Virus record (IMG/VR): IMGVR_UViG_3300042881_004109
Coordinates: 1-41,080 of that record
Reading direction: 5' to 3' (one strand)
Source: a virus
Length of the DNA stretch: 41,080 nucleotides
The position numbers were made by a program, and so were the translations under genes. The notes under the pieces are model-generated. The model was not told the origin of the DNA and did no database searches. It saw only the letters and a program-made list of their open reading frames with translations. Every line of letters starts with the position of its first letter. Position 1 is the first letter of the stretch. Positions 1,317-37,312 of the stretch are shown piece after piece.

Positions 1317-1867
1317 GCGTGGACGTGCCGGCCGTGGACACCATCCGGGCACTGCTCGAAGCCAACTGGCGGGACGACGATTGGTTCGGCTGCGACAGCC
1401 GGGTGATCTTCCACTACGCCATGAAAGCGCAGGTCTGCCGGCGGTTCGCGCCCCGGCGGGTGATCGAGATCGGCACCCGCTGCGGCTACTCGCTGCTCAC
1501 GTTCGCGACCGTGGCCCCGCGGGCGTCGTTTCTGTGCATCGACGGGGCGATGGACGCGGACAGCTATGACTGTCTGGCCCACTGGCGGCGGCTGGTGGAC
1601 CGGCACGAGATCGACGCCGACCTGGTCGTAGTGGACTCGCACGCGATCAAGTCACTCCCGCCGGCCGACTTCGCCCATATCGACGGCGACCACTCCTACG
1701 AGGGTGCCCTGGCCGACCTGCGGCTCGTGGCCCACTGCCGGGCGATCCTGGCGGACGACTGCGACAACCGCGACGTGCGGCGGGCGGTCGAGACGTTCGC
1801 CCGCGAGCAGGCCCGGACGGTGGAGTATTTCGATGATGGGCTGCGGCAGGGGGCCATCCTGACATGA
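1307..1867 (+). CDS. Class I SAM-dependent methyltransferase
   Basis: 186 aa, ATG at 1307. RRVIEIGTRCGYSLLTFA (about 51-68) is the SAM-binding motif I with an acidic residue plus Gly-rich loop; FLCIDGAMD follows as the second acidic strand, and FAHIDGDHSYEGALADL is the hallmark segment of the Methyltransf_24 type. This type often modifies sugars or small molecules rather than DNA. It sits between the propeller protein and a glycosyltransferase, so a glycan methylation role is inferred. TGA overlaps the next ATG (ATGA at 1864). A dispersed 10-mer lies at 1825-1834, read here as EYFD. Confidence 0.75.
   Translation: MGVSVDVPAVDTIRALLEANWRDDDWFGCDSRVIFHYAMKAQVCRRFAPRRVIEIGTRCGYSLLTFATVAPRASFLCIDGAMDADSYDCLAHWRRLVDRHEIDADLVVVDSHAIKSLPPADFAHIDGDHSYEGALADLRLVAHCRAILADDCDNRDVRRAVETFAREQARTVEYFDDGLRQGAILT
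1825..1834 (+). repeat. Dispersed motif GTATTTCGAT, first copy
   Basis: Exact copy. The 13 other exact copies start at 7685, 14956, 18035, 26497, 28491, 28815 and 36936 (same orientation) and 21782, 21815, 21845, 27444, 30696 and 37054 (reverse). A 9/10 copy is at 16790. See findings for the interpretation. Confidence 0.9.
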
Positions 1868-2916
1868 AGGTCGCCATCTACGCCCTCGCCAAGAACGAAG
1901 CCGCCAACGTGGCCCGCTGGGAGGGGTCGTGCCGGGACGCGGACGTTCGCGTGGTCACCGACACCGGCTCCACCGACGACACCGTGCAGCTGCTGGAGGC
2001 CGCGGGGGTCACTGTGGCCCGCGGTACCCCGATCCCGTGGCGGTGGGACGACGCCCACAACCTCTCGCTGATGCACGTCCCCGCGGACGTGGACGTGGCG
2101 ATCCGGCTCGACCTGGACGAAGCCCTCGACCCCGGGTGGCGGGCGGCCCTGGAGGCCGCGTGGAAGCCGGAGACCACGAAGCTCCGCTACTGGTACTGGT
2201 GGTCAGACGCGCTCCGGTTTCGCTGCGACCGCATCCACTCCCGCACCGGCTACCGCTGGGCGGGGGCGACCCACGAGGGGCTCGTGCGGTGGGACGGGGC
2301 CGAGGTGCAGACGTTCAACGACGACGTGGTGATCCGCCACCACCGGCAGCCCGGCAAGATGCACAAGAGCGACCTGTCGCTGCTCCGCCAGGCGGTCCGC
2401 GAGAATCCGGCCGACGCGCGGATGCAGTGGTATTTCGCCCGGGAGCTCGACTACCTGGGCGACCCGGCCGCGGCCGACGAGCTCGGCAAGTATCTGCGGA
2501 TGCCGGGCGGGGCTCCCAACGAGCGGTCCTACGCCCGGCGGGTGCTCTCGCGGATCGACCAGCAGGGCAGCAGCGTCCACATGCTCGGGGCGATGCTTGA
2601 GTCGCCGCAGGAGCCGGAGCCCTACTCCCACGTCGCCGGCATGGCGTGGGCGAAGCGCGACCCGGTGGGCACGCTCTACTGGGCTCGCCAGGCTCTCAAC
2701 TGCCACGACGAGAGCCGCAGCCACGCGAGCGATCCCGCGGCGTACGGCGACCTGCCGGCCGATCTCGCGTATTCGGCGGCGTGGATGCTCGGGCTCCACG
2801 ACGAGGCCCTCCGGCACGCCCGAGAGGCGGCCCGCCGAAACCCCGCCGACCCGCGGCACGCCGCCAACGTGGCGGCACTTGAGAGAATGACTGTAGAGGA
2901 CGGACCCAAACCATGA
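1864..2916 (+). CDS. GT2-family glycosyltransferase with helical repeat tail
   Basis: 350 aa. The N-terminus MKVAIYALAKNEAANVARW with TDTGSTDDTV (32-41) is the GT-A nucleotide-sugar fold; RLDLDE (81-86) supplies the DxD metal site. Residues about 175-345 are alpha-helical TPR-like repeats (RENPADARMQWYFARELDYLGD, HAREAARRNPADPRHAANVA). This architecture is common in glycosyltransferases placed beside methyltransferases. It probably transfers a sugar to a virion protein, or to a glycan with the two genes upstream; the acceptor is unknown. The product is soluble, with no membrane segment. The start overlaps the previous stop, and the stop overlaps the next start (ATGA at 2913). Confidence 0.8.
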   Translation: MKVAIYALAKNEAANVARWEGSCRDADVRVVTDTGSTDDTVQLLEAAGVTVARGTPIPWRWDDAHNLSLMHVPADVDVAIRLDLDEALDPGWRAALEAAWKPETTKLRYWYWWSDALRFRCDRIHSRTGYRWAGATHEGLVRWDGAEVQTFNDDVVIRHHRQPGKMHKSDLSLLRQAVRENPADARMQWYFARELDYLGDPAAADELGKYLRMPGGAPNERSYARRVLSRIDQQGSSVHMLGAMLESPQEPEPYSHVAGMAWAKRDPVGTLYWARQALNCHDESRSHASDPAAYGDLPADLAYSAAWMLGLHDEALRHAREAARRNPADPRHAANVAALERMTVEDGPKP

Positions 2917-3380
2917 CCGCCATCGAAATACTCATCGCCGACTCGCTCGCCGCCAGTCTGTCGCTCGCCGCGTTCGACGGGGCGATCGGCGGCGTGGACG
3001 CGGTCCGCACCTACACCCCGGACTACACCACGGAGGAGCTGGCCGATCTCAAGGTCTCGGTGGTGCCCGGCCCTGTGGAGGTGACGAACCACACCCGGCA
3101 GGCCGACCTGTTCGAGTGCGAGATCCACGTCGTGATCGGCAAGAAGTTCGACGACGACGACGAGATCGACGACCTGCAGGAGCTGCGGACGAACATCGTG
3201 GACGCGATCCGCTCGCGGACGCTGCCGGTGAGCGCCCCGCCGATGCCGGAGGGCGTGGCGTGGATGGGCATCACCAACGCGGTCACGTTCGACCAGGACC
3301 AGGTGACGAAGTCGCGGGTGTTTCTGGCCGACATCGCGATCACCTACCGATACGCCAACGCGAAGGTGGGGTCTCCATGA
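2913..3380 (+). CDS. Putative tail terminator / tail completion protein
   Basis: 155 aa, ATGA-coupled at both ends. The N-terminus (IEILIADSLAASLS) and the central acidic stretch (FDDDDEIDDLQELRTNIVDAIRS) followed by a C-terminal beta region (DQVTKSRVFLADIAITYRY) fit tail terminator or minor tail proteins encoded just before gp10-like and tail-tube genes. Assignment rests on size and position, not on a clear motif. It would cap the tail tube at the head-proximal end. Confidence 0.5.
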   Translation: MTAIEILIADSLAASLSLAAFDGAIGGVDAVRTYTPDYTTEELADLKVSVVPGPVEVTNHTRQADLFECEIHVVIGKKFDDDDEIDDLQELRTNIVDAIRSRTLPVSAPPMPEGVAWMGITNAVTFDQDQVTKSRVFLADIAITYRYANAKVGSP

Positions 3381-7682: not shown

Positions 7683-7692
7683 AGGTATTTCG

Positions 7693-8718
7693 ATGGTTCT
7701 CGTCCCGGCCAACAACATGGAGCGCGTCGATTCCGGCGCGTCGTCGGTCACAGCGAACACCGACGGCATGATCTCGCGGGAGGTCTCCCTGCGGTGGCTG
7801 ATCCACTCCGTCGAGACCTACACCGACGCCGAGCAGAAGGGCCGCGAGCTGGCCCCGCTCTACTACGACGGCCACCGCCGCGTGAGCCTTACGCCGCGGT
7901 CGGTCGGCAACGGCTGGTACGAGATCGAAGCGGTCTACGGCAACGCGGGCGTAAACGCTTACGAGGGGCGCGAGTTCATCAACGAGGACGGCGTGCCGAT
8001 GGTGCCGGCCGGGCTGTCGATGGACACCACCGGCGGCAAGGAAACCGTGACGATCGCGTACCAGGGCGAAGAAGACGTCAACCCGATCGCCACGGGGTAC
8101 GCGGAGAATCCGGCCATCGCCCCCAACTCCTACGGGGCGATCAACGTGTCGGGCGGCCGGGTCAACGGCGTCGAGATCACGGTGCCGTCGCTGTCGTGGA
8201 GCGAGACGTGGCTGGTCCCGGCGTGGTATCTGGTGACCGGCTCGAAGGAGCCGGCGATCAGAGAAAACGCGCAGGTCGAAGACGCGGACGACCCTTCGCA
8301 GCCCTACGCCCAGGTGCTGCACGAGATGGGCGGCATGGTGAACGAGGATCGGTTCCGGATCTTCGGCCCCGGTGAGGTGCTGTTTCTCGGGGCGAGGTTC
8401 GACGTGAACACGTCGTCCACGATGGTGCCGGTGACCTACTCGTTCGTGGCCCAGCGAAGCCGCAACGAGTTCAAGGTTGGCGACATCACGGTCACCAAGA
8501 AGGCCGGCATGGACTTTCTCTGGATCGTGTACGGGGACGAGGTGGACCAGAACTTCCCGGTCAAGAAGCCGCGATACGTCTACGTGGACCAGGTCTACCC
8601 GCGCAAGAAGTTTCTCGATCTCAAGCTCCCCGGCGGGCGGTGGTGGCCGCGGTTCTACCTGTCGGGCGGCAACACGTTCGAGCACCCGATCAGCGACGAG
8701 AAGAAGAACAAGGCATGA
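7693..8718 (+). CDS. Distal tail / baseplate protein, unrecognised family
   Basis: 341 aa. No family recognised. Mixed alpha/beta with aromatic strands (NGWYEIEAVYGN, SWSETWLVPAWYL, RPRYVYVDQVYP-like segment near 295-310) and a short Lys-rich end. It follows the tape measure, where distal tail and hub proteins are found, so a virion tip role is inferred. The ATG at 7693 is embedded in the motif GTATTTCGATG (7685-7695), and no conventional Shine-Dalgarno is seen before it. ATGA overlap with the next gene. Confidence 0.45.
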   Translation: MVLVPANNMERVDSGASSVTANTDGMISREVSLRWLIHSVETYTDAEQKGRELAPLYYDGHRRVSLTPRSVGNGWYEIEAVYGNAGVNAYEGREFINEDGVPMVPAGLSMDTTGGKETVTIAYQGEEDVNPIATGYAENPAIAPNSYGAINVSGGRVNGVEITVPSLSWSETWLVPAWYLVTGSKEPAIRENAQVEDADDPSQPYAQVLHEMGGMVNEDRFRIFGPGEVLFLGARFDVNTSSTMVPVTYSFVAQRSRNEFKVGDITVTKKAGMDFLWIVYGDEVDQNFPVKKPRYVYVDQVYPRKKFLDLKLPGGRWWPRFYLSGGNTFEHPISDEKKNKA

Positions 8719-14568: not shown

Positions 14569-15119
14569 TCGTTCTCGCTCTGATCGCCGCCGCGGCCGTG
14601 GCGTTTGGCTGGCCGCACCTTGCCCCGCTCGCCGAGCGGGCTCGAGCCGCGGCCCCCACGCTCACGCCCCGCCACTACGCCGGCATCGCCCTGGTGGCGG
14701 CGGCGATCGCGTACGGGTTTGCCCCCGCCCCCGGCCCGGCCCCCGGCCCGTCGCCGGCCCCCGACCCCGGCCCGCTGTCGCTGCGGGGTCTGTTCGCCGG
14801 GCCAACGGCGTCCGAGGACGCCGTCTTGGTGGGGGCCATGTGCGACGAGATCGCGGACGAGATCCAGTTTTCGTCGGGCCAGCCGGAGGGCTATCTGGCC
14901 ACCGGGGTGGCTGTCGATGAGCTGCGGCGGCGGGTCCGCGAGTTTCGCTGCCGGGGTATTTCGATCGGCGACCGGCAGCCGGCCGCCCGGGACGCGATCG
15001 CCAAGTTTCTCGAAGGGGCGGTCGGCACGGACGGCGGCCCGCTGAGTGCGGAGCAGCGGTCGGCGTGGGTGGCGGCGTACCGCGACGTGGGGAGGGCGGC
15101 GACCGATGCGGCGAAGTAG
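14565..15119 (+). CDS. Membrane-anchored protein with proline-rich linker
   Basis: 184 aa. TM helix 1 is MIVLALIAAAAVAFGW (1-16) and TM helix 2 YAGIALVAAAIAYGFA (about 38-53). These are followed by an Ala-Pro-Gly linker (54-70) and a soluble C-terminal domain with FSSGQPEGYLATGVAVDELRRRV. The layout (anchor, rigid linker, domain) resembles spanin or muralytic accessory proteins, but no catalytic motif is seen. A dispersed 10-mer at 14956-14965 encodes GISI. Confidence 0.45.
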   Translation: MIVLALIAAAAVAFGWPHLAPLAERARAAAPTLTPRHYAGIALVAAAIAYGFAPAPGPAPGPSPAPDPGPLSLRGLFAGPTASEDAVLVGAMCDEIADEIQFSSGQPEGYLATGVAVDELRRRVREFRCRGISIGDRQPAARDAIAKFLEGAVGTDGGPLSAEQRSAWVAAYRDVGRAATDAAK

Positions 15120-16771: not shown

Positions 16772-17100
16772 GCATGGTGTGGCGGTGGGTTATTTCGATG
16801 CTGGTCTGGCTGTCGGCCGACCACGAGCGGATCGCCACCGAGCCGGCCCGGGCGGCTGCGGCCGTGGCGGTGGCCCGCGCGTCGATCCTCGAGCAGCTCG
16901 AGGCCCGGCCCCTGCCGCCGGCCCCGCCGGGGCCGACGGCGTGCAAGTGCTCGAGCACCTGCGTGCGTGGGTCGTGGCGGCCCGATGGCCGCATCGAGGC
17001 CCGGTGCGACTGCACCTGCCCGCGGTGCGTGGCGGAGCGGGCGAAGCCCGGCACGGTTCGATCGGGGACGTGCTCGTCGGGCACCTGCCCGCCCCGGTGA
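16768..17100 (+). CDS. Small cysteine-rich protein with N-terminal TM
   Basis: 110 aa. GTG 16768 overlaps the previous stop (GTGA) and is chosen; ATG 16774 is the alternative. The start has a hydrophobic segment (WRWVISMLVWL). The C-terminal half has nine or more Cys in C-x-C and C-x2-C patterns (CKCSSTC, CDCTCPRC, CSSGTC), suggesting disulfides or zinc. Contains the 9/10 copy of the dispersed motif (16791-16799) shortly after the start. Unknown role; last third of the putative lysis block. Confidence 0.4.
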   Translation: MSMVWRWVISMLVWLSADHERIATEPARAAAAVAVARASILEQLEARPLPPAPPGPTACKCSSTCVRGSWRPDGRIEARCDCTCPRCVAERAKPGTVRSGTCSSGTCPPR

Positions 17101-17895: not shown

Positions 17896-18383
17896 GCCAT
17901 AGCCTCCTGTGCCAAGAGTTGAGCCGGAAACGATGCTACGTCAACGTCCGCCGGGCTGGTTGTCCATTCGTAGGTGACGCCGTCCGGATGCCGGGACGGG
18001 GGCAGCACGGACTGAGCGGCCCGCCCACCGAGCCGTATTTCGATCGAGTCAAACTTCACGACCGCCGACTCCGGCATCCACGGCTCCCAGCGAAAAAGCC
18101 GGTGCTCTCCCCGGGCCGACCGCCAGGTCGGGGTGGGCAGGTCGAGCACGCCGAACGCGGCCAGCTGCTCCCGGCCGGCGGGGTCGTCGTACTCGACGTC
18201 CACCACACCGGACGACGGGCCGAGCAGGAGCCCCACGTTGTCCCCGGCGGCGAGCCACCGGGCCACGTCGTCCGGGCTGGTTGTGCCACGGTGCTGCCAG
18301 CCGGTGCCGAGCGGGCGTTTCGCCCGGCGGGCGACGCGGACGAACCGGCAGTTGGCGGCGGCGAGGGATTCGATGGGGGTCAT
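17883..18383 (-). CDS. Stand-alone Prim-Pol (bifunctional primase/polymerase domain)
   Basis: 166 aa. RRAKRPLGTGWQHRGTTSPDDVARW (19-43), LLLGPSSGVVDVEYDD (52-67) with D62/E64 as the DxD/E metal site, GEHRLFRW (92-99) with H94, and IEIRLGGRAAQSVLPPS then GVTYEW (115-140) follow the order of the N-terminal Prim-Pol family (PF09250). It would synthesise primers or fill gaps. It has no helicase or C-terminal module and is near the minimum length of the family. ATG follows AGGAG. A dispersed 10-mer lies at 18035-18044, read as SIEIR in frame. Confidence 0.85.
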   Translation of the reverse strand: MTPIESLAAANCRFVRVARRAKRPLGTGWQHRGTTSPDDVARWLAAGDNVGLLLGPSSGVVDVEYDDPAGREQLAAFGVLDLPTPTWRSARGEHRLFRWEPWMPESAVVKFDSIEIRLGGRAAQSVLPPSRHPDGVTYEWTTSPADVDVASFPAQLLAQEAMAWGR

Positions 18384-18402
18384 GCGGCGGGCTCCTGGTT
18401 TT

Positions 18403-18420
18403 CCATTTTCCGGAAAGTGG
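18403..18420. promoter_or_regulatory. 18-bp palindrome before Prim-Pol
   Basis: CCATTTTCC / GGAAAGTGG is an 18-bp near-perfect inverted repeat with one mismatched pair, 20-37 bp upstream of the Prim-Pol ATG (minus strand). Could be an operator or a leader structure. Confidence 0.35.
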
Positions 18421-18425
18421 AATAT

Positions 18426-18450
18426 CCCCGCCGGCGAAGTGCCGGCGGGG
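18426..18450 (-). terminator. Perfect 10-bp hairpin after the 18462 gene
   Basis: CCCCGCCGGC (18426-18435) and GCCGGCGGGG (18441-18450) pair perfectly with a 5-nt loop. On the minus strand an AT-rich stretch (ATATTCC) follows, not a full T-run. Intercistronic attenuator or RNA-processing hairpin is as likely as a terminator. Confidence 0.4.
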
Positions 18451-18461
18451 TGGGTTGTCGG

Positions 18462-18680
18462 TCAGGCGATCACGATGGTTGTCCGGCCGCCCCGCGGTCC
18501 GCCGGTCAGCCGGGCGTGCAGGTCGTGGGCTTCGGCGAGAATCTGGCTGATGCCCCGGCCATTCTTCTGAGTGGCGGCCCACCGGCCGATCTCGTCCACG
18601 CGGGCGATCAGCTCCGCGGCGGTGCTATGCCGGTTGTTGCGGATACCTTCGAGCTCGCGGGCGGCGTGGGTGATCGTCAT
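18462..18680 (-). CDS. Small helical protein under conserved leftward promoter
   Basis: 72 aa: MTITHAARELEGIRNNRHST then AELIARVDEIGRWAATQKNG, ending GRTTIVIA. No family recognised. AGGAG lies before the ATG in the shared leader CCACAACCAGGAG. It is the first gene after the promoter at 18731-18759, so it belongs to the operator-controlled set. Confidence 0.5.
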   Translation of the reverse strand: MTITHAARELEGIRNNRHSTAAELIARVDEIGRWAATQKNGRGISQILAEAHDLHARLTGGPRGGRTTIVIA

Positions 18681-18730
18681 GGTATGGGTTCTCCTGGTTG
18701 TGGCTGCGGGTTTCGTCCCGCGTTGGCCTA

Positions 18731-18759
18731 GTTATATTCGATCGGCAAATAGGTGTCAA
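18731..18759 (-). promoter_or_regulatory. Leftward sigma70 promoter with operator in spacer (P3)
   Basis: On the minus strand: TTGACA (18759-18754), 17-bp spacer, TATAAC (18736-18731). The spacer begins CCTATTTGCCGATCG, shared almost exactly with the promoters at 20871 and 21507. GCCGATCGGC-type symmetry marks a likely repressor site. Confidence 0.75.
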
Positions 18760-18789
18760 GTGGTGAGAAAAGTTTTTTTGGTTGTGGGG

Positions 18790-19023: not shown

Positions 19024-19092
19024 GGGAGCATTATTGCCGGGCGGCTGCGGCGGTCAAGCCGGGTTGTCTGCTGGTTGTGCATGGGTTGTCCG

Positions 19093-19398: not shown

Positions 19399-19461
19399 TG
19401 GTTGTGCTCCTGGTTGTGGGCTATGGGTTGTCGGGTGGCGATGTGCCAGCCGGCCCGGTTC

Positions 19462-19480
19462 CCGCCGTCCCCGGCGGGGC
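19462..19480 (-). other. Intercistronic GC hairpin
   Basis: CCCGCCG / CGGCGGG with a short C-rich loop lies between the genes ending at 19505 and starting at 19398. Comparable hairpins lie in the next two gaps of this cluster (about 19869-19904 and 20344-20368). Confidence 0.35.
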
Positions 19481-19504
19481 GGCGGTGGCCGGGGCGGCCG
19501 GGCG

Positions 19505-19822: not shown

Positions 19823-19868
19823 GGTCTCGGGTCTCCGTTGGGGTTGGTTGTGGGTTGTCGGGCGACGC

Positions 19869-19904
19869 GCCCGGCATCCCCCTGGCCGGCCGCGGCGGAT
19901 GCCG
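19869..19904 (-). other. Intercistronic hairpin
   Basis: CCGGCATCC and GGATGCCGG form a perfect 9-bp stem around an inner GC-rich loop, between the genes at 19929 and 19822. No T-run follows. Confidence 0.4.
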
Positions 19905-19928
19905 GGGCCGGCGTGGGGGCGGCCGGGA

Positions 19929-20279
19929 TCAGGCCGCAGGGGCGATCACGCGGCGATCGGCCGAGACCGCCGCGAGAATGTCGGCCGCGGCCTGGTTGTC
20001 GCGGGCGATCGTGTCGCGTGTTTCGGTCGTCGTGTAGACGTCGATATCGCCGATCGTCCATCGGCCGGCCGCGTCGCGGTAGACCGTCACGCGGGCGACG
20101 CGAGATATCACACTGTCAACGTGATCGGGCAGGTGACACCAATACTCGCGGGCATCATCGGCCCGCATGAAGCCGCCCGCGGCCGGGCGGCTCCACGATT
20201 CCAGGGCCGCGGCCCCGTCTTCAATCTGCTGGCAAATGGCGTCGCGGTCCGCGGCGGTTAGCTTCTGGTCGATGGTCAT
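19929..20279 (-). CDS. Small protein, unrecognised
   Basis: 116 aa. MTIDQKLTAADRDAICQQIE and ESWSRPAAGGFMRADDAREY in the first half; the C-terminus has VARVTVYRDAAGRWTIGDID then DILAAVSADRRV. Helical start then a beta hairpin. The leader has CCAGGAGCCGAGACCATG. No family recognised; likely an early protein by strand and spacing. Confidence 0.45.
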   Translation of the reverse strand: MTIDQKLTAADRDAICQQIEDGAAALESWSRPAAGGFMRADDAREYWCHLPDHVDSVISRVARVTVYRDAAGRWTIGDIDVYTTTETRDTIARDNQAAADILAAVSADRRVIAPAA

Positions 20280-20343
20280 GGTCTCGGCTCCTGGTTGTGG
20301 TTGTGGGTTGTCGATCCGGCGGGTTGCCGGGCCGGCCCGGTCT

Positions 20344-20368
20344 CCCCTGCCCCGCGGGCGGGCAGGGG
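20344..20368 (-). other. Intercistronic hairpin
   Basis: CCCCTGCCC and GGGCAGGGG form a 9-bp stem between the genes at 20388 and 20279. Same arrangement as the two preceding gaps. Confidence 0.4.
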
Positions 20369-20387
20369 GTAGCGGGGCGGCCGGGCG

Positions 20388-20807
20388 TCAGGCCATCCCC
20401 TGCGTCGAGACCTGCTCGCGGGTTGTGGCGCGCGCGGCCAGGCCGCGGGCCATGTAGGCGTCATGCGCGGCGGCGGCGGCCTTCACCTTGTCGGCCAGGC
20501 CGGCGAGCACGTCCGCCGGGCGGTCCAGCCGTCGCGAGTCTGCGCCTAGGATGGTCGCGGAGATGATGCCGGCCGACAGCCAGGCCAGGTCCCCCGCCCG
20601 CGGGTTGTGTTTGCGGCCGCGAGCAAACCCGGCCACGAGCAGGGCCTTTGCAAGGGTCGTGCTCTTGCGCTCGCGACGCTCGTGGCGGAGCGCGTCGCGG
20701 AGCGAATGCGGCTGGCTGCTTCCCATGTAGTCCACCACGTAAGACATCGCCGAAAAGGCCGCGTCGATCGTCCGTCGTTCGGCCGCAGTGTAGATCCAGG
20801 CATTCAT
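20388..20807 (-). CDS. Small protein under leftward promoter P2
   Basis: 139 aa from ATG 20807 (MNAWIYTAAERRTIDAAFSA). RHERRERKSTTLAKALLVAG then ARGRKHNPRAGDLAWLSAGI are basic-helical, and VLAGLADKVKAAAAAHDAYM ends it. An upstream in-frame start at 20915 would run through the promoter and is rejected. First gene after P2; unknown function. Confidence 0.5.
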   Translation of the reverse strand: MNAWIYTAAERRTIDAAFSAMSYVVDYMGSSQPHSLRDALRHERRERKSTTLAKALLVAGFARGRKHNPRAGDLAWLSAGIISATILGADSRRLDRPADVLAGLADKVKAAAAAHDAYMARGLAARATTREQVSTQGMA

Positions 20808-20870: not shown

Positions 20871-20899
20871 GTTATAGCCGTTCGGCAAATAGAAGTCAA
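20871..20899 (-). promoter_or_regulatory. Leftward sigma70 promoter with operator in spacer (P2)
   Basis: Minus strand: TTGACT (20899-20894), 17-bp spacer TCTATTTGCCGAACGGC, TATAAC (20876-20871). The -35 overlaps the end of the upstream gene (20896). The operator core differs from P1/P3 by one base (CGAACGG for CGATCGG). Confidence 0.7.
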
Positions 20900-21480
20900 A
20901 ATGGTGCGGGGGCAAGGTGCTCGCGAGTACGGGGCCGGCCGGCGGTCGGGTGACGGGCGAACCACTGGCAATCGGCCAGCGACACCCGCCAGTTGCGGCC
21001 GGCCTTGTGGCCGCGGACCTTCCCGGCCTTCACGAGTTGCCGCAGCCATTGTTCGGTCACGTCCGCGATCGCGGCCCCCTCGACCAATCCGATGAAGGTC
21101 TCCGCGGCCCCGTTGGCCGCGGCCACATCCGCGAGCCGGGCGATCGTCTCCGCCATCACCTGGTCGGCCGGTCGCATTGTCGGGGCCGACTCCGCGAGCA
21201 CCGCGAACAGCTCATCGGCGGACATTCCACGGTCCGTGGCGGACACGTCCAGGCCGCGAACGTAGGTGGCATCCCCACCGGCGAACGCGGCCCGGTTCCG
21301 GGCCTTCCAGTGTCCGCCGTGCTCGTCGCCACAACTGGCCGAGAAAGCCCCGCGGCGGAAGTCACCGATCCGCTCCACCTCTGCGGCCTCCAGCGACCGG
21401 GCCTCACGGTACGCTGCGAGCACGTCCGCCCAATCGAGTCCGGCGGCGGCGGCGGTGGCTTTGTGTTCGTTCGTGTTCAT
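20896..21480 (-). CDS. HTH protein at head of leftward cluster
   Basis: 194 aa. ATG 21480 with GAGGAGA 8 bp upstream; the longer frame to 21615 crosses the promoter. The C-terminal 60 residues carry an excisionase-type HTH: AIADVTEQWLRQLVKAGKVR then GHKAGRNWRVSLADCQWFAR. The N-terminal two thirds are helical (AAYREARSLEAAEVERIGDF) with no match. First gene from P1 and probably a regulator of this set, possibly the ligand of its operators. Confidence 0.6.
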   Translation of the reverse strand: MNTNEHKATAAAAGLDWADVLAAYREARSLEAAEVERIGDFRRGAFSASCGDEHGGHWKARNRAAFAGGDATYVRGLDVSATDRGMSADELFAVLAESAPTMRPADQVMAETIARLADVAAANGAAETFIGLVEGAAIADVTEQWLRQLVKAGKVRGHKAGRNWRVSLADCQWFARHPTAGRPRTREHLAPAPF

Positions 21481-21781: not shown

Positions 21782-21854
21782 ATCGAAATACCAGCCGCGG
21801 CCGGCTGGGGGGCGATCGAAATACCCCACGCGAGGGGGTGCCCCATCGAAATAC
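21782..21854. repeat. Three phased copies of ATCGAAATAC
   Basis: Exact copies start at 21782, 21815 and 21845, all on the same strand, with 33 and 30 bp between starts, close to three helical turns. Same-face iteron-like arrays are typical of protein-binding sites. Confidence 0.85.
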
Positions 21855-21901
21855 CACCTAGGGGGGGTGTGTTGCGTTTTGCAACACCCCCACCTAGGTG
21901 G
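21854..21901. other. Large GC-rich hairpin next to the triplet
   Basis: CCACCTAGGGGGGG...GTTGC (21854-21875) pairs with GCAAC...CCTAGGTGG (21881-21901) through a GTTTT loop, about 20 bp of stem with one bulge. No T-run, so a cruciform or bidirectional structure fits better than an intrinsic terminator. Confidence 0.6.
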
Positions 21902-22052
21902 GTAGTAACGGGGGCGTTGCGCCCCCCACCGCGGGGGGGTCCTTGGCCCCGCGGCACGCGGGGTGCCCCGGCTGCGAACTACACCCAATCGATGACTGCC
22001 GCCCGAAAGGCCCCCAGGAGCCCCAGGACGCCCGCCGCTGATCGCGGCGTGC

Positions 22053-23009
22053 TCACGCCGCGGGATCCTCTTTCGCCCGGAACTGGAGCACGTCCGGGGC
22101 CGCCGGCGGCGGGTCGTCGAGGTTCAACGGCGGCATGGCGATCGCCCCGCCGATGTCCGTGGGGCAGATCGCGGGGTCCACGTAGACCCGCTGGAGATTC
22201 GGATCCGAGTGATCGAGCAGCAGCGTGGCCGCGGCGGTCCCGCCCTTGAGGGCCGCGTAGCTCGCCGCGGTGCGGCGAAGCCCGTGGAACCCCCGATACC
22301 GCACCCCGGCCGACTCACACAACACTTTCAGCGACGCCCACTGCGACCTGGTCCGCCGATCCCACGGCCACACCAGGTCGTCGGGGCCGCGGCGGTGCTC
22401 CGCGAGCATCGCCGCCAGCTGCGGCGTGATCGACCGCTCGATGTCGCGAGTCGAGCCCTTTCTGGTCGCCCCGAGCAGCACGATCCGGCACCGCTCCAGG
22501 TCCACCTGTCCCCAGCGGAGCGCGGTGAGTGCCGAGAATCGTTCGCCCGAGCACACCGCGGCGTAGATGAGAGTCGGCCACCACCATCGGGCCGGCAGCC
22601 CGCCGACCTTGCCGATCCGCCGCTTGCCGAACCGAATGAGCCTCTCCACGTCTTCGGCCGTGTAGGCCCGGCCGACAGGCAGCCGTGTCGGCACCTTGAT
22701 CTTCGGCAGCTCCGGAAACTCCGCGGCCCACCGCTTGCGGGCGGCGTAGGTCCAGACCGCGGCGATCATGACGCGATCCTTTCGCACGCTCGCGGGACTG
22801 GGCCGCCGCCCGGCCCACGCGATCGTCTCGGCCCGCCACCGCAGGTAGCGGGCGACGACCAGGTCGTCGAAGTCGTCGGTCGTCGCCGGCCGACCCAAGA
22901 ACCGCTCGAACCGATCCCACAGCATCCGGTACAGCCCGGCCGTGTGGGGCTTCAACTCCCGCAGCAGAGCGTACCGCTCCGCGACCTCCCGAACCGTCAT
23001 GGCACACAT
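22053..23009 (-). CDS. int: Tyrosine site-specific integrase
   Basis: 318 aa. A SAM-like N-terminal core-binding domain (about 1-105, PHTAGLYRMLWDRFERFLG) precedes the catalytic domain with R157 (SGERFSAL), H242-x2-R245 (FHGLRRTAAS), H267 (LLLDHSDP) and nucleophile Y276 (QRVYVDP), the full R-HxxR-H-Y set. It should insert the phage by recombination at attP/attB. Start ATG 23009 is chosen because GGAG lies 8 bp before it; ATG 23000 is in frame. It diverges from the xis-like gene at 23253 across the attP candidate. Confidence 0.92.
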   Translation of the reverse strand: MCAMTVREVAERYALLRELKPHTAGLYRMLWDRFERFLGRPATTDDFDDLVVARYLRWRAETIAWAGRRPSPASVRKDRVMIAAVWTYAARKRWAAEFPELPKIKVPTRLPVGRAYTAEDVERLIRFGKRRIGKVGGLPARWWWPTLIYAAVCSGERFSALTALRWGQVDLERCRIVLLGATRKGSTRDIERSITPQLAAMLAEHRRGPDDLVWPWDRRTRSQWASLKVLCESAGVRYRGFHGLRRTAASYAALKGGTAAATLLLDHSDPNLQRVYVDPAICPTDIGGAIAMPPLNLDDPPPAAPDVLQFRAKEDPAA

Positions 23010-23252: not shown

Positions 23253-23477
23253 ATGATCGTGGCGCTACCTCCCAACCGCAAGCTGATCGGCACCCGCGAC
23301 GCCGCCAAGATCCTTGGCATAAGCATGGGGCGGCTTCGCCAGCTCGCCCTCGACGGGACGGTGTGGAGTGACCACGCCGCAGCAAACGCTCGTGTGTTCG
23401 ACGAGACAGAGATCCGCAAGCGGGCCAAGGTGCCCAGGACTACTGGGCGCAAGCCCGGCGGATTTCGTGCCGGCTGA
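23253..23477 (+). CDS. Excisionase-like MerR-type HTH protein
   Basis: 74 aa. LIGTRDAAKILGISMGRLRQ then LALDGTVWSD and FDETEIRKRAKV is the excisionase/HTH_17 pattern: helix, turn, recognition helix, wing, basic tail. ATG 23253 has GGAG only 2 bp away; GTG 23259, two codons later, has 8 bp spacing and may be the true start. It is divergent from int across the attP candidate, the normal place for a recombination directionality factor. Confidence 0.65.
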   Translation: MIVALPPNRKLIGTRDAAKILGISMGRLRQLALDGTVWSDHAAANARVFDETEIRKRAKVPRTTGRKPGGFRAG

Positions 23478-23520
23478 TTTCAGCGGCTTTTTCATGGGGA
23501 CTCCTTCTCGGAGAACCCTC

Positions 23521-26484: not shown

Positions 26485-26799
26485 ATGGCAACGCCAGTAT
26501 TTCGATCGCGGGTTCATGTGGACTACCACTTCAACGTCAGCATCACCCGCGAGCAGGGCGATGCGATCATCGTGGACGGCCAGCGATTCGTGCGCCTGCT
26601 CGGCGGCTCATTCATGTTGAGCATGACCGGCGAGTGGCACTACTCGCTACGCGAGGCCGACCTGTCGGTGCTCGCGACGCTGTCCAGTCTCCGCGGCCGG
26701 GTCGATGACCTGGTCGCCACGATCCAACGGCCGCTCCCGGCCGCAGACGCTGCACAGGTTCCGGCGTCGGGGAGAGCGCACGCGGGGGTCGCGACGTAA
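26485..26799 (+). CDS. Small protein, unrecognised
   Basis: 104 aa, AAGGA 8 bp before the ATG. A beta-rich first half (HVDYHFNVSITREQGDAIIV, FVRLLGGSFMLSMTGEW) and a helical end. Contains a dispersed 10-mer at 26497-26506, 12 bases after the ATG (read PVFRS). A repressor on that site would block its translation or transcription. Function unknown. Confidence 0.45.
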   Translation: MATPVFRSRVHVDYHFNVSITREQGDAIIVDGQRFVRLLGGSFMLSMTGEWHYSLREADLSVLATLSSLRGRVDDLVATIQRPLPAADAAQVPASGRAHAGVAT

Positions 26800-27148: not shown

Positions 27149-27469
27149 ATGGCGCTCAAAACCACCGACGAAGCGATCGCGGCCCTGCCGATCTTCGCCC
27201 AGCTGCGAGCCCGGCCCAGCGACCCGCCGACATCGCACGCGGCTGCGAAGCGGGCCGCGAAGACGGCCGGCGGCCACCGGGACGCGATCGTCGAGGCGCT
27301 CGCGGCCGGGCCGGCGGGGCAGACCGAGATCGCCCGGCGGGCCGGGCTGTCGGTGGCCCAGGTGAGCAAGCGGCTCAAGGAGCTGCGGGACGGCGGGCGG
27401 ATCGAGCGGACCGGGCGCGATGTGGCGGCGGGGGAGTGTGAGTATCGAAATACCGAGGCAAGGAGGTAG
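27149..27469 (+). CDS. Winged-helix DNA-binding protein
   Basis: 106 aa. AGPAGQTEIARRAGLSVAQV then SKRLKELRDGGRIERTGRD is a MarR/ArsR-like wHTH: helix, recognition helix, wing. The first part is TSHAAAKRAAKTAGG, as in phage proteins that precede such a wing. A dispersed motif at 27444-27453 near its 3' end is read EYRNT. Candidate transcription regulator or helicase-loader partner. Confidence 0.6.
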   Translation: MALKTTDEAIAALPIFAQLRARPSDPPTSHAAAKRAAKTAGGHRDAIVEALAAGPAGQTEIARRAGLSVAQVSKRLKELRDGGRIERTGRDVAAGECEYRNTEARR

Positions 27470-27852: not shown

Positions 27853-28737
27853 ATGGCCGGTGAATGGATCGCGGTAGACATTGCCCTGCCGGACAAGCCG
27901 GAGTTCCAGGAGATCATGGACCTGACCGGCCGTGACGAGGCGTGGGTCGAGTTCCTGCTCATCCGGATGTGGGGCTGGGCCTCGATGCACTGTGCCGACG
28001 GCACGGCACGGATGACCATGCCACGGATGGTGAGAACGTGGGGGGCGGACGAAGCCTTCTGGCTGGCCGTGGCCAGCGTGGGCTGGCTGGAGATCGACGA
28101 GACGGCCGCTACCGTTGCTGTCCCCGGATGGGACCGCCGGTTCAGCCAGGCGGCCAAGTCGAGAGCCCAGCACCAGGACCGGGCAAAGGCCCAAAACGAC
28201 CGCGAACCCGAGCGTCGGCGACGCGCAGCGGTTGCCTGCGCTCAAGCGCAGGCACTGCCTGCGCCGACGCGCAGTAGAGGAGAGGAGAGGAGAATTCCTC
28301 CTCCTCCGCGTGAGGCTTCGCCGTCCGAGGCCGGCAGCAGCGGCTGGGAGGCACTCCGGGCCGCATGGGGCTCCGGCCCCGGAGCGGCATGGAAGCCCGC
28401 CGCCCCGCCCGAGCCGCTCGCGGACCGGCTCGCGGAGCCCGGGTGGCTCGCCGAAGCCCTGGAGGCCATCCCGCGGCTGCGGGCGTGCCGGTATTTCGAT
28501 ACCCCGGTGACGCTGGTGCAGTTCTGCGGCCACGGGTTCGTCCAGCGAGTGCTCGGCGGGCAGTACGACGCCCCGAAGACACCTAAGAAACCTGCCGGCG
28601 GCCCCGACGCCCCAGCCCCGCCCCGCATCGACCCGGCGTTCGAGGCCGCCAAGGCCGCGACGCTGGCCCGGGAGGCGGCCCGCCGGGCCGCGGAGCACGC
28701 CCGGCTCGACGCCCAAGCCGCAGGAGCCGCCCCATGA
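27853..28737 (+). CDS. Phage replication protein (helicase-loader / initiator-like)
   Basis: 294 aa. WIAVDIALPDKPEFQEIMDL then WVEFLLIRMWGWASMHCADG resembles the N-terminal wHTH of phage replisome organisers. A long low-complexity linker (about 115-150, Arg/Ala/Pro/Glu) separates it from a C-terminal helical part with AWGSGPGAAW and TLVQFCGHGFVQ. The linker DNA holds the inverted-repeat array (28212-28274). Lambda O has the same arrangement, with the origin inside the gene. A dispersed motif lies at 28491 (RYFD). It likely starts theta replication with host helicase. Stop is ATGA-coupled to the next gene. Confidence 0.65.
   Translation: MAGEWIAVDIALPDKPEFQEIMDLTGRDEAWVEFLLIRMWGWASMHCADGTARMTMPRMVRTWGADEAFWLAVASVGWLEIDETAATVAVPGWDRRFSQAAKSRAQHQDRAKAQNDREPERRRRAAVACAQAQALPAPTRSRGEERRIPPPPREASPSEAGSSGWEALRAAWGSGPGAAWKPAAPPEPLADRLAEPGWLAEALEAIPRLRACRYFDTPVTLVQFCGHGFVQRVLGGQYDAPKTPKKPAGGPDAPAPPRIDPAFEAAKAATLAREAARRAAEHARLDAQAAGAAP
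28212..28274. other. Origin-like inverted-repeat array inside replication gene
   Basis: Outer arms GCGTCGGCG (28212-28220) and CGCCGACGC (28262-28270) enclose an inner perfect palindrome with arms TGCCTGCGCT (28233-28242) and its complement (28245-28254). A direct third copy TGCCTGCGC is at 28256, and CGACGCGCAG occurs at 28219 and 28265. It is followed by a GA-rich/EcoRI-centred segment (about 28275-28308). Lambda-like origin is inferred. Confidence 0.5.
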
Positions 28738-29000
28738 CCCGCAAACTCTCTGCCGCGTCGATCCTCGCCGCCCGCTCGCAGGGCACGACCACCGCCCAGC
28801 GGCAGCTGCTCGAAGTATTTCGATCGCTCCGCGACTCGCAGGGGTACGCCCCGACGTTTCGCGAGCTGGCCGACGAGATCGGCGTCAACGTCGGCGACGT
28901 GTCGGCGAAAATGTGGCGGCTCCGGCGGGACGGGGTCGTCGATTGGCACGACGGCAAGGCCAGGACCATCCGGATCGTGGGGGACTCATGGGGCTCTTGA
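28734..29000 (+). CDS. LexA-type winged helix without protease domain
   Basis: 88 aa. TTAQRQLLEVFRSLRDSQGY then APTFRELADEIGVNVGDVSA and RDGVVDWHDGKARTIRIV match the LexA N-terminal domain (GYxPTxREIA..., wing with K/R-A-R). There is no S24 peptidase. It could be a compact phage repressor or SOS mimic and a candidate for binding the dispersed motif. A copy of the motif lies inside its own gene (28815-28824). Confidence 0.7.
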   Translation: MTRKLSAASILAARSQGTTTAQRQLLEVFRSLRDSQGYAPTFRELADEIGVNVGDVSAKMWRLRRDGVVDWHDGKARTIRIVGDSWGS

Positions 29001-29476: not shown

Positions 29477-31568
29477 CCCGGCCAAGGCCGCAGAGCGAAA
29501 GCGGCTGCTCGACCTGGAGCGGACCCGCGAGCGTACGCGCCGCGGTGCCGATATCGGTGAGATTCCCAAGGTGGTGGACGCCGCCCGGCGTGAGTCGTGC
29601 CGGCTCGACCTGGAGCGGTTCCTGGTGACGTACTTCCCGTACTCCACCGGGCTCTCGCCCTTCTCCGACGACCACAAGCGGGTGATCTCGCGGATCCAGG
29701 ACTGCGTGACGCGCGGCGGCCGGTTCGTGAACGCGGTCTACCGCGGCTTCGCCAAGTCAACGATCTCGGAGTTGGCCCTGCTATGGGCCATGCTCTACGG
29801 GCACAAGCGGTTCGGCGGGATCTTCGCGGCCGAGAGCGACCTGGCCGCCAAGGCCATCAACTCGATCCGCACCGAGCTCTCCGACAACGACCTGCTCTAC
29901 GACGACTTCCCCGAGGTGTGCCACGCGGTCCGGGCGCTTGAGGGCAAGGCCCAGCGGTGCAACTCGCAGACGCACAACGGCCGGCGTACCCACATCGGCT
30001 GGAAGAAAGACACGCTCGTGCTGCCGACGATCGAGGGGTCGGTGTCGAGCGGTGCGATCATCATGTCCCGCGGGCTCACCGGCTCGATCCTGGGGCTCCG
30101 GTGGAAAACGCCCGAGGGCCACCAGCTGCGGCCCGACTTCACGATAGTGGACGACCCGCAGACCCGCGAGTCGGCCCGGTCGCCGGTGCAGTGCCAGGCC
30201 CGGCTGGAGATCCTGACCAAGAGCGTGATGAAGCTCGCCGGCCACACGAAGTCGATGGCGTGCGTGGTCAACGCCACGGTGATCGAGCAGGACGACATGG
30301 TGGACCAGCTGCTCGACCAGGGCCGCTACCCCGCGTGGCAGGGCGAGCGGATCCCGATGGTCCGGCAGTTTGCCGACCGCCACGAAGATCTCTGGATGGA
30401 GCGGTATCGCGAACTGCGATGCACGTTTGCGAAGGACGTGGTGGGCGACCAGGCCCGCGCCCACCGCGAGGCCAACGAGTTCTACGCCGCCAACCGCGAC
30501 GAGATGGACCGCGGGTGTCTGGTGTCGTGGGCGTCATGCTTCGACCCGGACGTCGAGGTCTCCGCGATCCAGCACGCCTACAACGCCCTCATCGACGATG
30601 GCCCGGACGTGTTCGCGTCGGAGTTTCAACAAGCACCGCTCAAGAACGCGGCCGAGTCGCTGGGGATCTCGCCGGACGAGGTCCGGGGCCGGGCCATCGA
30701 AATACCCGTGGGCGTGGTGCCGCGCGGGTGCGACACGCTCACGGCGTTTGTCGATGTGCAGGAGAAGCTCCTGTACTGGGCGGTCGTGGCGTGGGGCTCG
30801 CAGCTCCGCGGGCACCTGGTGGCGTACGGGGCGTACCCCGAGCAGGGCCGGAGCTACTACACGCTCCGCGACTCGAAAAAGACGCTTGTGAAGGCCGCCG
30901 GCGGGGCTTCGCTCGAGGCCGCGATCCACGCGGGGCTCGAGACCGTGGCGGCGTCGCTCCTGGGCCGTGAGTTCACCCGCGAAGACGACGACGCGGTGCT
31001 GCGGGTGGGGCAGCTGTTCGTCGATGCCAACTGGGCACAGACGCAGGGCGTCGTCCGCGACTTCGCCCGCCGGTCGTCGTTCGGGCCGCGGGTGCTGCCG
31101 ACCCATGGCCGGTTCGTGGGCGCGAGCGGCCAGACGATCTCGGACAAGCGGCCGGACCGCGGCGAGCGGATCGGGCACAACTGGCGGACGAGCACGATCG
31201 GCAGGCAGCGGCACGTTCTCTACGACACCAACGCATGGAAGACGTTTGTGGCGTCCCGGCTCAAGCTCCCGGCCGCGGACCCGCAAGCGTTCACGGTCCA
31301 CGCGGGCTCGCACGAGATGCTCGTGGAGCACCTGTCGGCGGAGGCCCCGGTTCGCGTCGAGTCGAAGATGCGGACGGTGGACGAGTGGAAGCTGATACCG
31401 GGCCGCGACAACCACTGGTGGGACTGTCTCGTCGGTGCCGCGGTGGCCGCGAGCTACTCCGGCGTGACGGCCGTGGGGGCCGAGGTGGTCAAGCCCGTGC
31501 GAAAGGTCATCACCCGCGAGGAGATGGCGGCACGCCGTGCGGCGATCATGGGCAAGATGGGCAGATGA
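29454..31568 (+). CDS. terL: Terminase large subunit (GpA-like)
   Basis: 704 aa; ATG 29454 with GAGAGG upstream. An ATPase region has VYRGFAKSTISELAL (Walker A-like, about 102-116) and FTIVDDPQTRES as Walker B. RNase-H-like nuclease residues lie in the second half (TLTAFVDVQEKLLYWAVVAW, NHWWDCLVGAAVAAS). GpA-type enzymes cleave and pump DNA into the prohead. No small-subunit gene is recognised nearby. A dispersed motif is at 30696-30705 (AIEIP). The open frame is intact. Confidence 0.85.
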   Translation: MGRPQSADPAKAAERKRLLDLERTRERTRRGADIGEIPKVVDAARRESCRLDLERFLVTYFPYSTGLSPFSDDHKRVISRIQDCVTRGGRFVNAVYRGFAKSTISELALLWAMLYGHKRFGGIFAAESDLAAKAINSIRTELSDNDLLYDDFPEVCHAVRALEGKAQRCNSQTHNGRRTHIGWKKDTLVLPTIEGSVSSGAIIMSRGLTGSILGLRWKTPEGHQLRPDFTIVDDPQTRESARSPVQCQARLEILTKSVMKLAGHTKSMACVVNATVIEQDDMVDQLLDQGRYPAWQGERIPMVRQFADRHEDLWMERYRELRCTFAKDVVGDQARAHREANEFYAANRDEMDRGCLVSWASCFDPDVEVSAIQHAYNALIDDGPDVFASEFQQAPLKNAAESLGISPDEVRGRAIEIPVGVVPRGCDTLTAFVDVQEKLLYWAVVAWGSQLRGHLVAYGAYPEQGRSYYTLRDSKKTLVKAAGGASLEAAIHAGLETVAASLLGREFTREDDDAVLRVGQLFVDANWAQTQGVVRDFARRSSFGPRVLPTHGRFVGASGQTISDKRPDRGERIGHNWRTSTIGRQRHVLYDTNAWKTFVASRLKLPAADPQAFTVHAGSHEMLVEHLSAEAPVRVESKMRTVDEWKLIPGRDNHWWDCLVGAAVAASYSGVTAVGAEVVKPVRKVITREEMAARRAAIMGKMGR

Positions 31569-35333: not shown

Positions 35334-35543
35334 GTGGCGACAACCGACGAAGTGCTCGACGCAGTTGCGGCGAATCTCGCCCAGCCGAAGCGCGCCCGCA
35401 CCGACGCCGGTGAGGTCGAGCAGCACGACCTCGACAAGCAGGTCGCCGCGGCCCGGTTCGTGATCGACGCCCAGGCCCGCACGGTCTCGCCGTTTCGCTC
35501 GCTGCGGTTCGCGCAGATCGAATCCCCGGGGGCCATCGGCTGA
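35334..35543 (+). CDS. gpW-like head-tail connector candidate
   Basis: 69 aa. GTG 35334 is chosen (GGAG 7 bp upstream; GTG 35328 is too close). TDAGEVEQHDLDKQVAAARF then SPFRSLRFAQIESPGAIG resembles the small protein family found just before portal genes (D-G-x-V-x-Q/H-S/D-L...), often linked to gpW. It would fit at the head-tail joint. The stop shares bases with the portal ATG. Confidence 0.5.
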   Translation: MATTDEVLDAVAANLAQPKRARTDAGEVEQHDLDKQVAAARFVIDAQARTVSPFRSLRFAQIESPGAIG

Positions 35544-37312
35544 TGGGGATTCTCTCCGGACTGCTCGGGCCATCCCGGGCCAAGATGCAGAGCGCGATCG
35601 CGACCCAGCAGGCCGCGATCGCGACGCTCGTGCGTGCGAAGTACGACGCCGCACAGACCACCGACCTGAACCGCCGGCACTGGGCGCTCGCCGACTACTA
35701 CTCCGCCGACGCCGCCCTCTCCCCGGCCGTCCGGCAGAAAATGCGGGCGCGAGCCCGGTACGAGCTGGCGAACAACTCCTACGCCGCGGGCATGGCGTCC
35801 ACCTGGTCGCACGACCTGGTCGGCACCGGCCCCCGGCTCCACCTAGATCTCGGGCCGGACGCCGACCCGGAGCTGGTCCGCCGGATCGAGCTGGCGGTCT
35901 ACGACTGGTCGGTGAACATCGACCTGGCGAAGAAGCTCCGCGTCGCCAAGCACGCGAAGATCGGCGACGGCGAGGTGTTCGGCGTGCAGGTGACCAACCG
36001 CTCGCTCCGGGGCGTGCAGGTGGACCTGCGGCTGATCGAGAGCGATCACTGCGTGTCGCCCACCGGCTTCCCCACCGAGACCGACGTGGACGGCGTCGAG
36101 TTCGACGACGACGGCAACCCGGCCCGGTATTGGTTCACCCGCAACCACCCCGGCTCGCTCACGCCCGGCTGGACGCTGGACGGCCGGTGGCACGCCGCCG
36201 ACAAGGTCCACCACTGGTTTCACGCGACCCGCCCGGGCCAGCACCGCGGTGTGCCGGAGATCGCCCCGGCTCTCGAACTGTTCGCCATGCTGCGGCGGTT
36301 CACGCTCGCGACCGTGACGGCCGCGGAGACCGCGGCCGACTTCGCGGCGATCCTCAAGACGACCATGCCGGCCGACGGCGGCGGGGCCGCGTCGCTGGAG
36401 ACGCTGGAGACCATGCCGATCACCCGAGGGATGGCGATCGCCGCCCCGGACGGCTGGGAGCCGGTGCAGATGAAGGCCGAGCACCCGACGAGCAACTACG
36501 ACTCGTTCGTGCGTCGGCTCCTCAACGAGATCAGTCGCTGCATCGATATGCCCTACATCGTGGCCGCGATGGACTCGTCCACCGCGAACTACTCGTCGAT
36601 GCGGGGCGACTACCTGGTGTACCGCAAGCGGATCTCGGTCGAGCGCAACGACATGGAGCGGGTGTTTCTCGACCCGCTGCTCGTGGCGTGGCTGGAGGAG
36701 GCCGCCCTGGTGCCGGGGCTTATCCCCGACGGGCTGCCGCCGGTGGCCGAGTGGAACTGGACTTGGACGTGGGACGGGTTCGAGCACGTCGATCCGCTCA
36801 AGGAGGCCGACGCCGAGGCGGCCATGCTCGCGGCCAACACGACGACCATCGCCGAGGTCTGCCAGAAGCGCAACAAGGACTGGCGGCAGGTGCTGCGGCA
36901 GCGGGCCGTGGAGAAGACGCTGGAGCGTGAGTTGGGTATTTCGATGGGCGAACCCGTCGCGGCCGACGCCGGCGACACCGACATCGAAGCCGCCGACGGC
37001 TACCGGCCGCCGCAGGCCGCAAGGTCCGCGGCCCGGCGCGGCCTGGAGCTGCGATCGAAATACGGCCGCGGCGGCACTGCGGTGGGCATCGCCCGGGCTC
37101 GCGACATCGCGGGCGGCCGGTCGCTCCCGCTCGACACGATCGCCCGGATGGTGTCGTTCTTCGCCCGGCACGCGGCCTACAAGGACAACCACGGCGAAGA
37201 TCCGCCCTCCAACGCCGAGATCTCGTGGCTCCTGTGGGGCGGCGACGCCGGTCGGGCGTGGGCCGAGCGGATTTGGACCCGCGAGAACGCCGACGAGGAG
37301 CAGACCGCATGA
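35543..37312 (+). CDS. Portal protein (lambda family)
   Basis: 589 aa. The N-terminus (MGILSGLLGPSRAKMQSAIA) leads to ARYELANNSYAAGMASTWSH and DLVGTGPRLHLDLG, as in lambda-type portals. Then DRVHHWFHATRPGQHRGVPE-like LHHWFHATRPGQHRGVPE (about 216-231), MDSSTANYSSMRGDYLVYRK and a C-terminal WNWTWTWDGFEHVDPLKEA. This is the dodecameric DNA gate of the head. Two dispersed motifs (36936, 37054) are in the C-terminal third, in opposite orientations. ATGA-coupled to the capsid gene. Confidence 0.85.
   Translation: MGILSGLLGPSRAKMQSAIATQQAAIATLVRAKYDAAQTTDLNRRHWALADYYSADAALSPAVRQKMRARARYELANNSYAAGMASTWSHDLVGTGPRLHLDLGPDADPELVRRIELAVYDWSVNIDLAKKLRVAKHAKIGDGEVFGVQVTNRSLRGVQVDLRLIESDHCVSPTGFPTETDVDGVEFDDDGNPARYWFTRNHPGSLTPGWTLDGRWHAADKVHHWFHATRPGQHRGVPEIAPALELFAMLRRFTLATVTAAETAADFAAILKTTMPADGGGAASLETLETMPITRGMAIAAPDGWEPVQMKAEHPTSNYDSFVRRLLNEISRCIDMPYIVAAMDSSTANYSSMRGDYLVYRKRISVERNDMERVFLDPLLVAWLEEAALVPGLIPDGLPPVAEWNWTWTWDGFEHVDPLKEADAEAAMLAANTTTIAEVCQKRNKDWRQVLRQRAVEKTLERELGISMGEPVAADAGDTDIEAADGYRPPQAARSAARRGLELRSKYGRGGTAVGIARARDIAGGRSLPLDTIARMVSFFARHAAYKDNHGEDPPSNAEISWLLWGGDAGRAWAERIWTRENADEEQTA

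Follow-up and report, generated by a model that had tools for sequence, protein, structure and literature searches.

What reads a ten-base word that recurs across a whole phage genome, and what is the word for? The question is raised by the virus record IMGVR_UViG_3300042881_004109 of IMG/VR, a sequence of 41,080 nucleotides that was analysed at its full length (the window). Its most over-represented 10-mer under both base-composition and Markov models, GTATTTCGAT (the word), is non-palindromic and is present in both orientations, in 15 exact copies and one 9/10 copy. The word is real, specific to the phage, selected as DNA, conserved in position, arrayed upstream of one gene, g33, and varies together with that gene. 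We propose that it is the recognition site of g33, a regulator encoded by the phage itself, with an operator array at g33 and dispersed sites that would reduce transcription. The probability of this explanation, judged from sequence comparisons, is roughly 0.57.

Exact copies of the word are expected 0.009 times in the window from base composition and 0.017 times under a second-order Markov model, close to the value of about 0.01 given in a preliminary description of this DNA. With up to one mismatch allowed, the window holds 16 matches, as compared with 0.71 +/- 0.80 in dinucleotide shuffles (maximum 4, n=100). The 14 exact copies listed in that description and the 9/10 copy at 16790 are all present; a fifteenth exact copy (2922-2931, - strand) had been overlooked. 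Seventeen related records contain 117 exact copies, where 0.2 would be expected by chance. In these records, variants with one changed base clearly exceed chance only for positions 1, 9 and 10 and are at or near it for positions 2-8, so that the strict core is TATTTCG. The word is usually preceded by A or G, and what follows the core is variable. Of the extended consensus GGTATTTCGATSG proposed earlier, the ten core letters are strict and the extension is a tendency.

The whole analysis was computational, and comparisons were made with about 50 related phage sequences. These are metagenomic, linear and partly incomplete genomes with genes called by a simple script, and counts over them are counts of records that are not phylogenetically independent. 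Searches with the terminase identified 80 related viral contigs as well as 50 genome loci, most of these loci from Phycisphaerae, other Planctomycetota and Lentisphaerota with terminase identity of about 34-45%; the host of the window phage is therefore probably a planctomycete-type bacterium. The phage looks temperate, since an integrase gene of the tyrosine recombinase family is present (g34, 22053..23009, - strand, given here as context). A megablast search with 24 kb of the window found no match in 50,697 phage records. The closest relative, G001 (IMGVR_UViG_3300042453_002958, 95% identical to the window where aligned), is a 77-kb record in which two related but distinct phage genomes are joined in the tail region (1-36500 and 36500-77375), probably a chimeric assembly. 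Because of this junction, its interpretation as a prophage contig with host flank was rejected. It yields no attachment (att) site, and its first 36.5 kb, the second phage joined to the first (G001b), serves as a control.

The word is phage-specific. The related phages G037, G033, G036, G024 and G001b have no copies of it, and the word read backwards was found in no phage record. Eight planctomycete-type genomes of 3.5-10 Mb contain 0-10 copies of the 10-mer, about one per Mb or fewer, and the 13-mer AGTATTTCGATRG has 36 matches in 199 planctomycete genomes.

Several observations support selection acting on the word as DNA. Ten copies lie inside called genes, as compared with a mean of 0.35 after synonymous codon shuffling within genes (maximum 3 in 1000 trials), which argues for such selection. 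These copies are read in all frames and on both strands as ten different peptides (EYFD, IEIL, GISI, IEIR, YRNT, RYFD, VFRS, IEIP, GISM and RSKY), in line with the earlier claim of translation in different frames. They use codons that are rare in the window genome: ATA (14 of 496 isoleucine codons), whose tolerance had also been pointed out, GTA (1.7% of valine codons) and AAT (7% of asparagine codons). A protein-level cause, a repeated peptide, was rejected on the grounds of the mixed frames, the rare codons and the synonymous-shuffle null. Orthologs provide further support for the DNA-level selection suggested by the preliminary description. Expected retention was derived from every 10-bp window in the alignments concerned; the comparisons are not mutually independent. 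Among orthologs with 50-90% protein identity, the ten bases of the site are kept in 346 of 1494 comparisons, where 98 would be expected; for those with 50-60% identity the figures are 98 observed and 16 expected. Rather than being lost at synonymous positions in relatives, the copies are thus retained 3.5 times as often as other 10-bp windows. G001 differs from the window at 1 of 130 site bases, as compared with 6.2 expected changes.

Three exact direct copies, starting at 21782, 21815 and 21845 (start spacings 33 and 30 bp), form the putative operator array (21782..21854, - strand). It lies 302-374 bp upstream of g33 (20896..21480, - strand), the first gene of the leftward operon, is oriented as g33 transcription and has the 3' end of the integrase gene on its other side. 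A search for the g33 family gave 77 loci. About 36 of them have 2-3 direct copies or dyads upstream of g33 in its direction of transcription, at a distance of about 230-670 bp and with spacings mostly of 20-47 bp, commonly 29-34 bp and often near multiples of the helical turn (22, 32-33 bp). The arrays of G020-G022 are TATTTCG-ATTC-CGAAATA dyads, that of G051 is TATTTCG-N4-CGAAATA (N4 being CAAG, CATG or CGAG), and similar dyads are present in G054 and G052. With this spacing the half-sites are separated by 11 bp, close to one turn of the helix. A similar 7-4-7 layout is found in the operators of mercury-type MerR regulators. Around the word, the consensus (GRGTATTTCGATRGCC) extends further at array sites than at dispersed ones. 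Although the adjoining integrase differs (25-30% identity), the array remains upstream of g33, and its persistence beside very different integrases led to the rejection of integrase arm sites. Directly beside the array in the window (21858-21915) is a large GC-rich inverted repeat around GGGTGTTGC-GTTTT-GCAACACCC with CCTAGG arms, which is possibly a phage attachment site (attP), a terminator or an origin.

The g33 protein (194 amino acids) consists of an all-helical N-terminal domain (residues 1-122) and a C-terminal domain (129-176) of HTH_17/Xis/BldC type. The latter is predicted with high confidence to be a winged helix-turn-helix (HTH); the AlphaFold2 model has a mean predicted local distance difference test score of 87.7 and a predicted template modelling score of 0.62. 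PHROG excisionase and DNA-binding profiles match g33 with E about 2e-5 and Pfam HTH_17 with E 7.5e-4, below its curated cut-off, in each case mainly in the C-terminal region. The nearest solved folds to the C-terminal domain are those of Pukovnik Xis, BldC and RdfS (4j2n, 6ama, 8dgl), with weak E-values of 0.4-1 and a probability up to 0.97 for Xis. These are small proteins with a single winged HTH, whereas g33 adds the helical N-terminal domain of about 120 amino acids. BldC binds direct repeats, reading an AT-rich patch and then a C-G pair (PMC5859096). TATTT-CG has the shape of such a patch and pair, so that a winged HTH of this type could, by resemblance, read it. Sites of the BldC group are continuous loose repeats, in contrast to the separate exact words that are the candidate sites of g33. 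No match to g33 was found by tblastn among 50,697 phage records. In 392 genomes of the planctomycete phylum, a search found no g33, which is not informative on its own, and no integrated prophage with g33 that would define att sites.

The preliminary description held that no gene of the window identifies the reader, and proposed several HTH proteins for binding. Among these, g33 (20896) is singled out as the candidate reader by array position, co-occurrence and covariation. All 12 genomes of at least 40 kb with full-length g33 carry the word, and G037, without g33, has none. The 36.5-kb G001b agrees, having neither g33 nor the word; both of these phages have homologues of g28, g43, g45, the integrase, the terminase large subunit (TerL) and the portal protein. 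The word itself varies among relatives: GTATTTCGAT is used in most phages, GTATTTCGCA in G051, G052 and G049 (the CGCA type in G051 and G049), and AGTATTTCG with varied ends in G020-G022 and G056. Over 13 genomes, the distance between word variants correlates with g33 distance (Spearman rho 0.76), as compared with 0.07 for g28, 0.20 for the integrase and 0.30 for TerL. The partial correlation of g33 given TerL is 0.73, a value reached in 0 of 2000 permutations, and that of TerL given g33 is 0.07. Two other HTH proteins fit worse. The gene g28 (18790) was rejected because of its presence in the word-less G037, G001b and G036 and its low covariation, and g46 (28734, LexA-type HTH) because it was not found in G017, which has 10 copies of the word.

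Outside the array, copies are dispersed over the whole window. An exact site in g2, 33 bp from its end (1825..1834, +), has the same position in 8 records, and an antisense one 9 bp inside the start of g4 (2922..2931, -) in 11. The start codon of g10 is overlapped by an exact site (7685..7694, +) in the arrangement GAGGTATTTCGATGG, that is a Shine-Dalgarno-like GAGG, the word and ATG. The exact site in g20 (14956..14965, +) is conserved in 8 records and flanked by an inverted repeat, GCTGCCGG/CCGGCAGC (14942-14979), which is largely kept in G001, G009, G010 and G012. The 9/10 site, TTATTTCGAT, lies near the start of g24 (16790..16799, +) and is also present in G001. An exact antisense site in g26, a primase-like fragment (18035..18044, +), has the same position in 8 records. 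Further exact sites are found 12 bp upstream of g41 (26497..26506, +), antisense in g43, 16 bp from the end of the gene and immediately upstream of g44 (27444..27453, -), in the replication-initiation-like g45 (28491..28500, +; a site near this position in 13 records), in g46, where the product has a LexA-type winged HTH (28815..28824, +), and antisense in the TerL gene g48 (30696..30705, -). The last two are in g56, one sense (36936..36945, +) and one antisense (37054..37063, -), 118 bp apart. From its context we take g56 to be the portal gene; family-library searches covered the window genes other than g11 to g25 and g49 to g60.

Family-wide, there are 63 non-redundant dispersed positions, 42 sense and 21 antisense to the gene that contains them (p = 0.01 against equality), and 18 of the 63 are no more than 20 bp away from a gene boundary, where 9.6% would be expected (p = 2e-5). 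A start-codon register, GTATTTCGATG, recurs in about seven gene families; there the word spans the interval from the ribosome-binding site to the ATG, and GGAG or GAGG often stands before it. The integrase gene has 0 sites against 3.3 expected, an avoidance that is seen in other genes as well and is not specific. The antisense and interior sites and the start-codon overlap speak against promoter elements, which were considered unlikely. An RNA element was judged unlikely because of the mixed orientation and the lack of an Rfam family in the window, where transfer RNA and Rfam scans found nothing; a GUAU-UUCG-AUAC hairpin is occasional and limited to copies with AC after them.

In the mechanism that we propose, g33 would bind the word directly through its winged HTH. 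Through the three upstream copies, acting as operators, g33 would regulate the operon that it leads and perhaps also the region of the integrase. At high levels g33 would in addition occupy the 12-13 dispersed copies, which lie at the starts and ends of genes as well as within early and late genes. Bound copies would then act as roadblocks that cut transcription genome-wide, like the stoperators of cluster A mycobacteriophages, so that binding may silence transcription as in a prophage. The preliminary description had offered three uses, namely stoperator-like repressor sites, partition or nucleoid sites, and an iterated host motif. The first of them is the best supported and the last is unsupported.

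As proposed, the system works like the cluster A (L5-type) stoperators but is not a member of that group, because its reader is unrelated and a third of its dispersed sites are antisense. It resembles the systems of L5 gp71 and the TipsytheTRex repressor in a short asymmetric site with about 15-30 copies per genome, one or more of them at the gene of the reader, in a phage that is or looks temperate, and in word variants that track reader divergence (PMC9283540, PMC6550527). Cluster A genomes have 20-30 copies of a 13-bp site, mainly in short intergenic regions and gene junctions; here the 41 kb hold somewhat fewer copies of a shorter, 10-bp core, and sites are enriched near gene boundaries but mostly interior. 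In the cluster A system the bound repressor stops the elongation of transcripts in a lysogen. The cluster A reader gp71 is monomeric and combines an N-terminal HTH with a stoperator domain, while g33 matches HTH_17/Xis-type families only, and an L5-type repressor is not among the top 50 PDB fold matches listed for it. The word is also unrelated, some relatives have dyads in their arrays, and the host lineage is different. The 22-bp repeats of T1/Stevie and those of the Nostoc cyanophages A-1/N-1 are likewise asymmetric and dispersed, in phages of non-Actinobacteria, and have been suggested to be stoperator-like (PMC4319613, PMC4916379). Those repeats are mainly intergenic and have no identified reader, in contrast to the largely coding word with its candidate reader. 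Tentatively, and with less confidence than in the recognition of the word by g33, the system may represent stoperator-like silencing that evolved independently outside actinobacteriophages, with an Xis/BldC-type reader bearing an undescribed helical domain, half-sites genome-wide, dyads at its own operator in some relatives, and independence of orientation.

A number of points weigh against silencing by g33. Reversal of an L5 site abolishes repression, and L5 sites follow transcription (PMC9283540); here orientation is weakly tied to transcription, and the ratio of 42 to 21 is far from one-sided. A steric block or an architectural role would tolerate antisense sites. Many of the sites are well within genes. 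In some phages whose g33 homologues show 39-45% identity (G049, for example), the array is present and dispersed copies are almost absent. The same-operon neighbour g26 also correlates with the word (0.67), and the covariation could partly reflect shared ancestry of neighbouring genes. The leftward operon led by g33 looks early and not lysogenic: it holds the primase-like g26 and, in relatives, what we take to be an anti-restriction-like protein. So g33 could be an early-lytic regulator instead of an immunity repressor. Moreover, a place where an immunity repressor could sit is taken by another HTH gene, at 23254-23478 in the window and of XRE type in relatives.

Among other explanations, the one that survives best, though unlikely, keeps g33 as reader and makes it an Xis-like architectural or recombination factor, which would bend the attachment region at the array and organise or protect DNA at the dispersed copies without silencing. 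It accounts for the excisionase matches of the winged HTH, for the array lying between the integrase gene and g33, and for array spacings near helical-turn multiples, and mixed site orientation poses no problem for it. Xis-type and BldC-type proteins, moreover, bind direct repeats cooperatively (PMC5859096, PMC11963761). Such a role fits poorly with an array that stays with g33 while the adjoining integrase is replaced by very different ones, and with dispersed sites enriched at gene starts and ends. To our knowledge, no Xis has strict genome-wide sites.

Next in rank, and rather improbable, is that g33 or another early protein activates or times lytic transcription or translation through the sites, the start-codon copies being functional. 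This role would suit the position of g33 at the head of an early-looking operon and the start-8 register to which the word keeps in about seven gene families, frequently accompanied by a Shine-Dalgarno-like sequence. The antisense third of the sites, the many copies deep inside genes, the absence of promoter-like spacing to start codons and of an Rfam family in the window speak against it.

We consider it improbable to a still greater degree that the reader is another phage protein, either one co-inherited with g33 (such as g26 or a leftward-operon gene that was not recognised) or an XRE/MerR-like protein beside the integrase. The correlation of g26 and the presence of an HTH gene at the expected place of an immunity repressor are consistent with such a reader. 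Against this, G036 has g26 without full-length g33 and without the word, phages with the word differ in their integrase-proximal HTH (an XRE-like one in G017, G020-G022 and G026, another HTH in the window and G009), and g28 and g46 fail on covariation or presence. Finally, a host-determined motif (Chi-, KOPS- or uptake-like, or HIP1-like as suggested earlier) copied by the phage is very improbable: the word is strict, asymmetric and dispersed in coding DNA like Chi sites, and the genomes examined may not include the true host, but it is rare in planctomycete genomes and absent from the related G037 and G001b, and neither the local arrays in front of a single phage gene nor the covariation with this gene would be explained.

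Several other features of the window were observed. A second phage-specific repeat family forms leaders just upstream of the start codons of the leftward operon (18383-20807, genes g26-g32). These are of CACAACCAGGAG type in the window and of CCCGAACCCATG, ACCACAACCAGGAG and GAACGTGGAAAC types in relatives, with several to 14 copies each; leader repeats were seen in G009, G021, G022, G026, G049, G050, G058, G059, G063 and G065. They resemble the start-associated sequences (SAS) of cluster K mycobacteriophages more than GTATTTCGAT does. SAS are also repeats at start codons; they are found at starts and almost all in one orientation, while for the word starts are a minority. The small HTH gene beside the integrase (23254-23478, +; MIVALPPNRKLIGTRDAAKILGISMGRLRQ...) was missed by the gene caller and has a homologue at this place in G009; G017, G020-G022 and G026 instead have an XRE-type repressor-like gene here. 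The small gene is a candidate immunity repressor or Cro. In the left part of the window (1307-2916), g3 (1864-2916) matches the beta-1,4-glycosyltransferase PHROG moron family and adjoins g2, presumably a methyltransferase; the two may modify the host surface or the virion.

Dispersed repressor sites that silence a prophage have been characterised essentially in cluster A mycobacteriophages. The pairing proposed here, which couples a candidate reader to a strict word and for which GTATTTCGAT, GTATTTCGCA and AGTATTTCG offer specificity variants ready for use, is testable with one protein and one oligonucleotide. A second, apparently unrelated system, if true, would show that whole-genome silencing evolved more than once, and would give a first handle on gene control in phages that probably infect planctomycetes.

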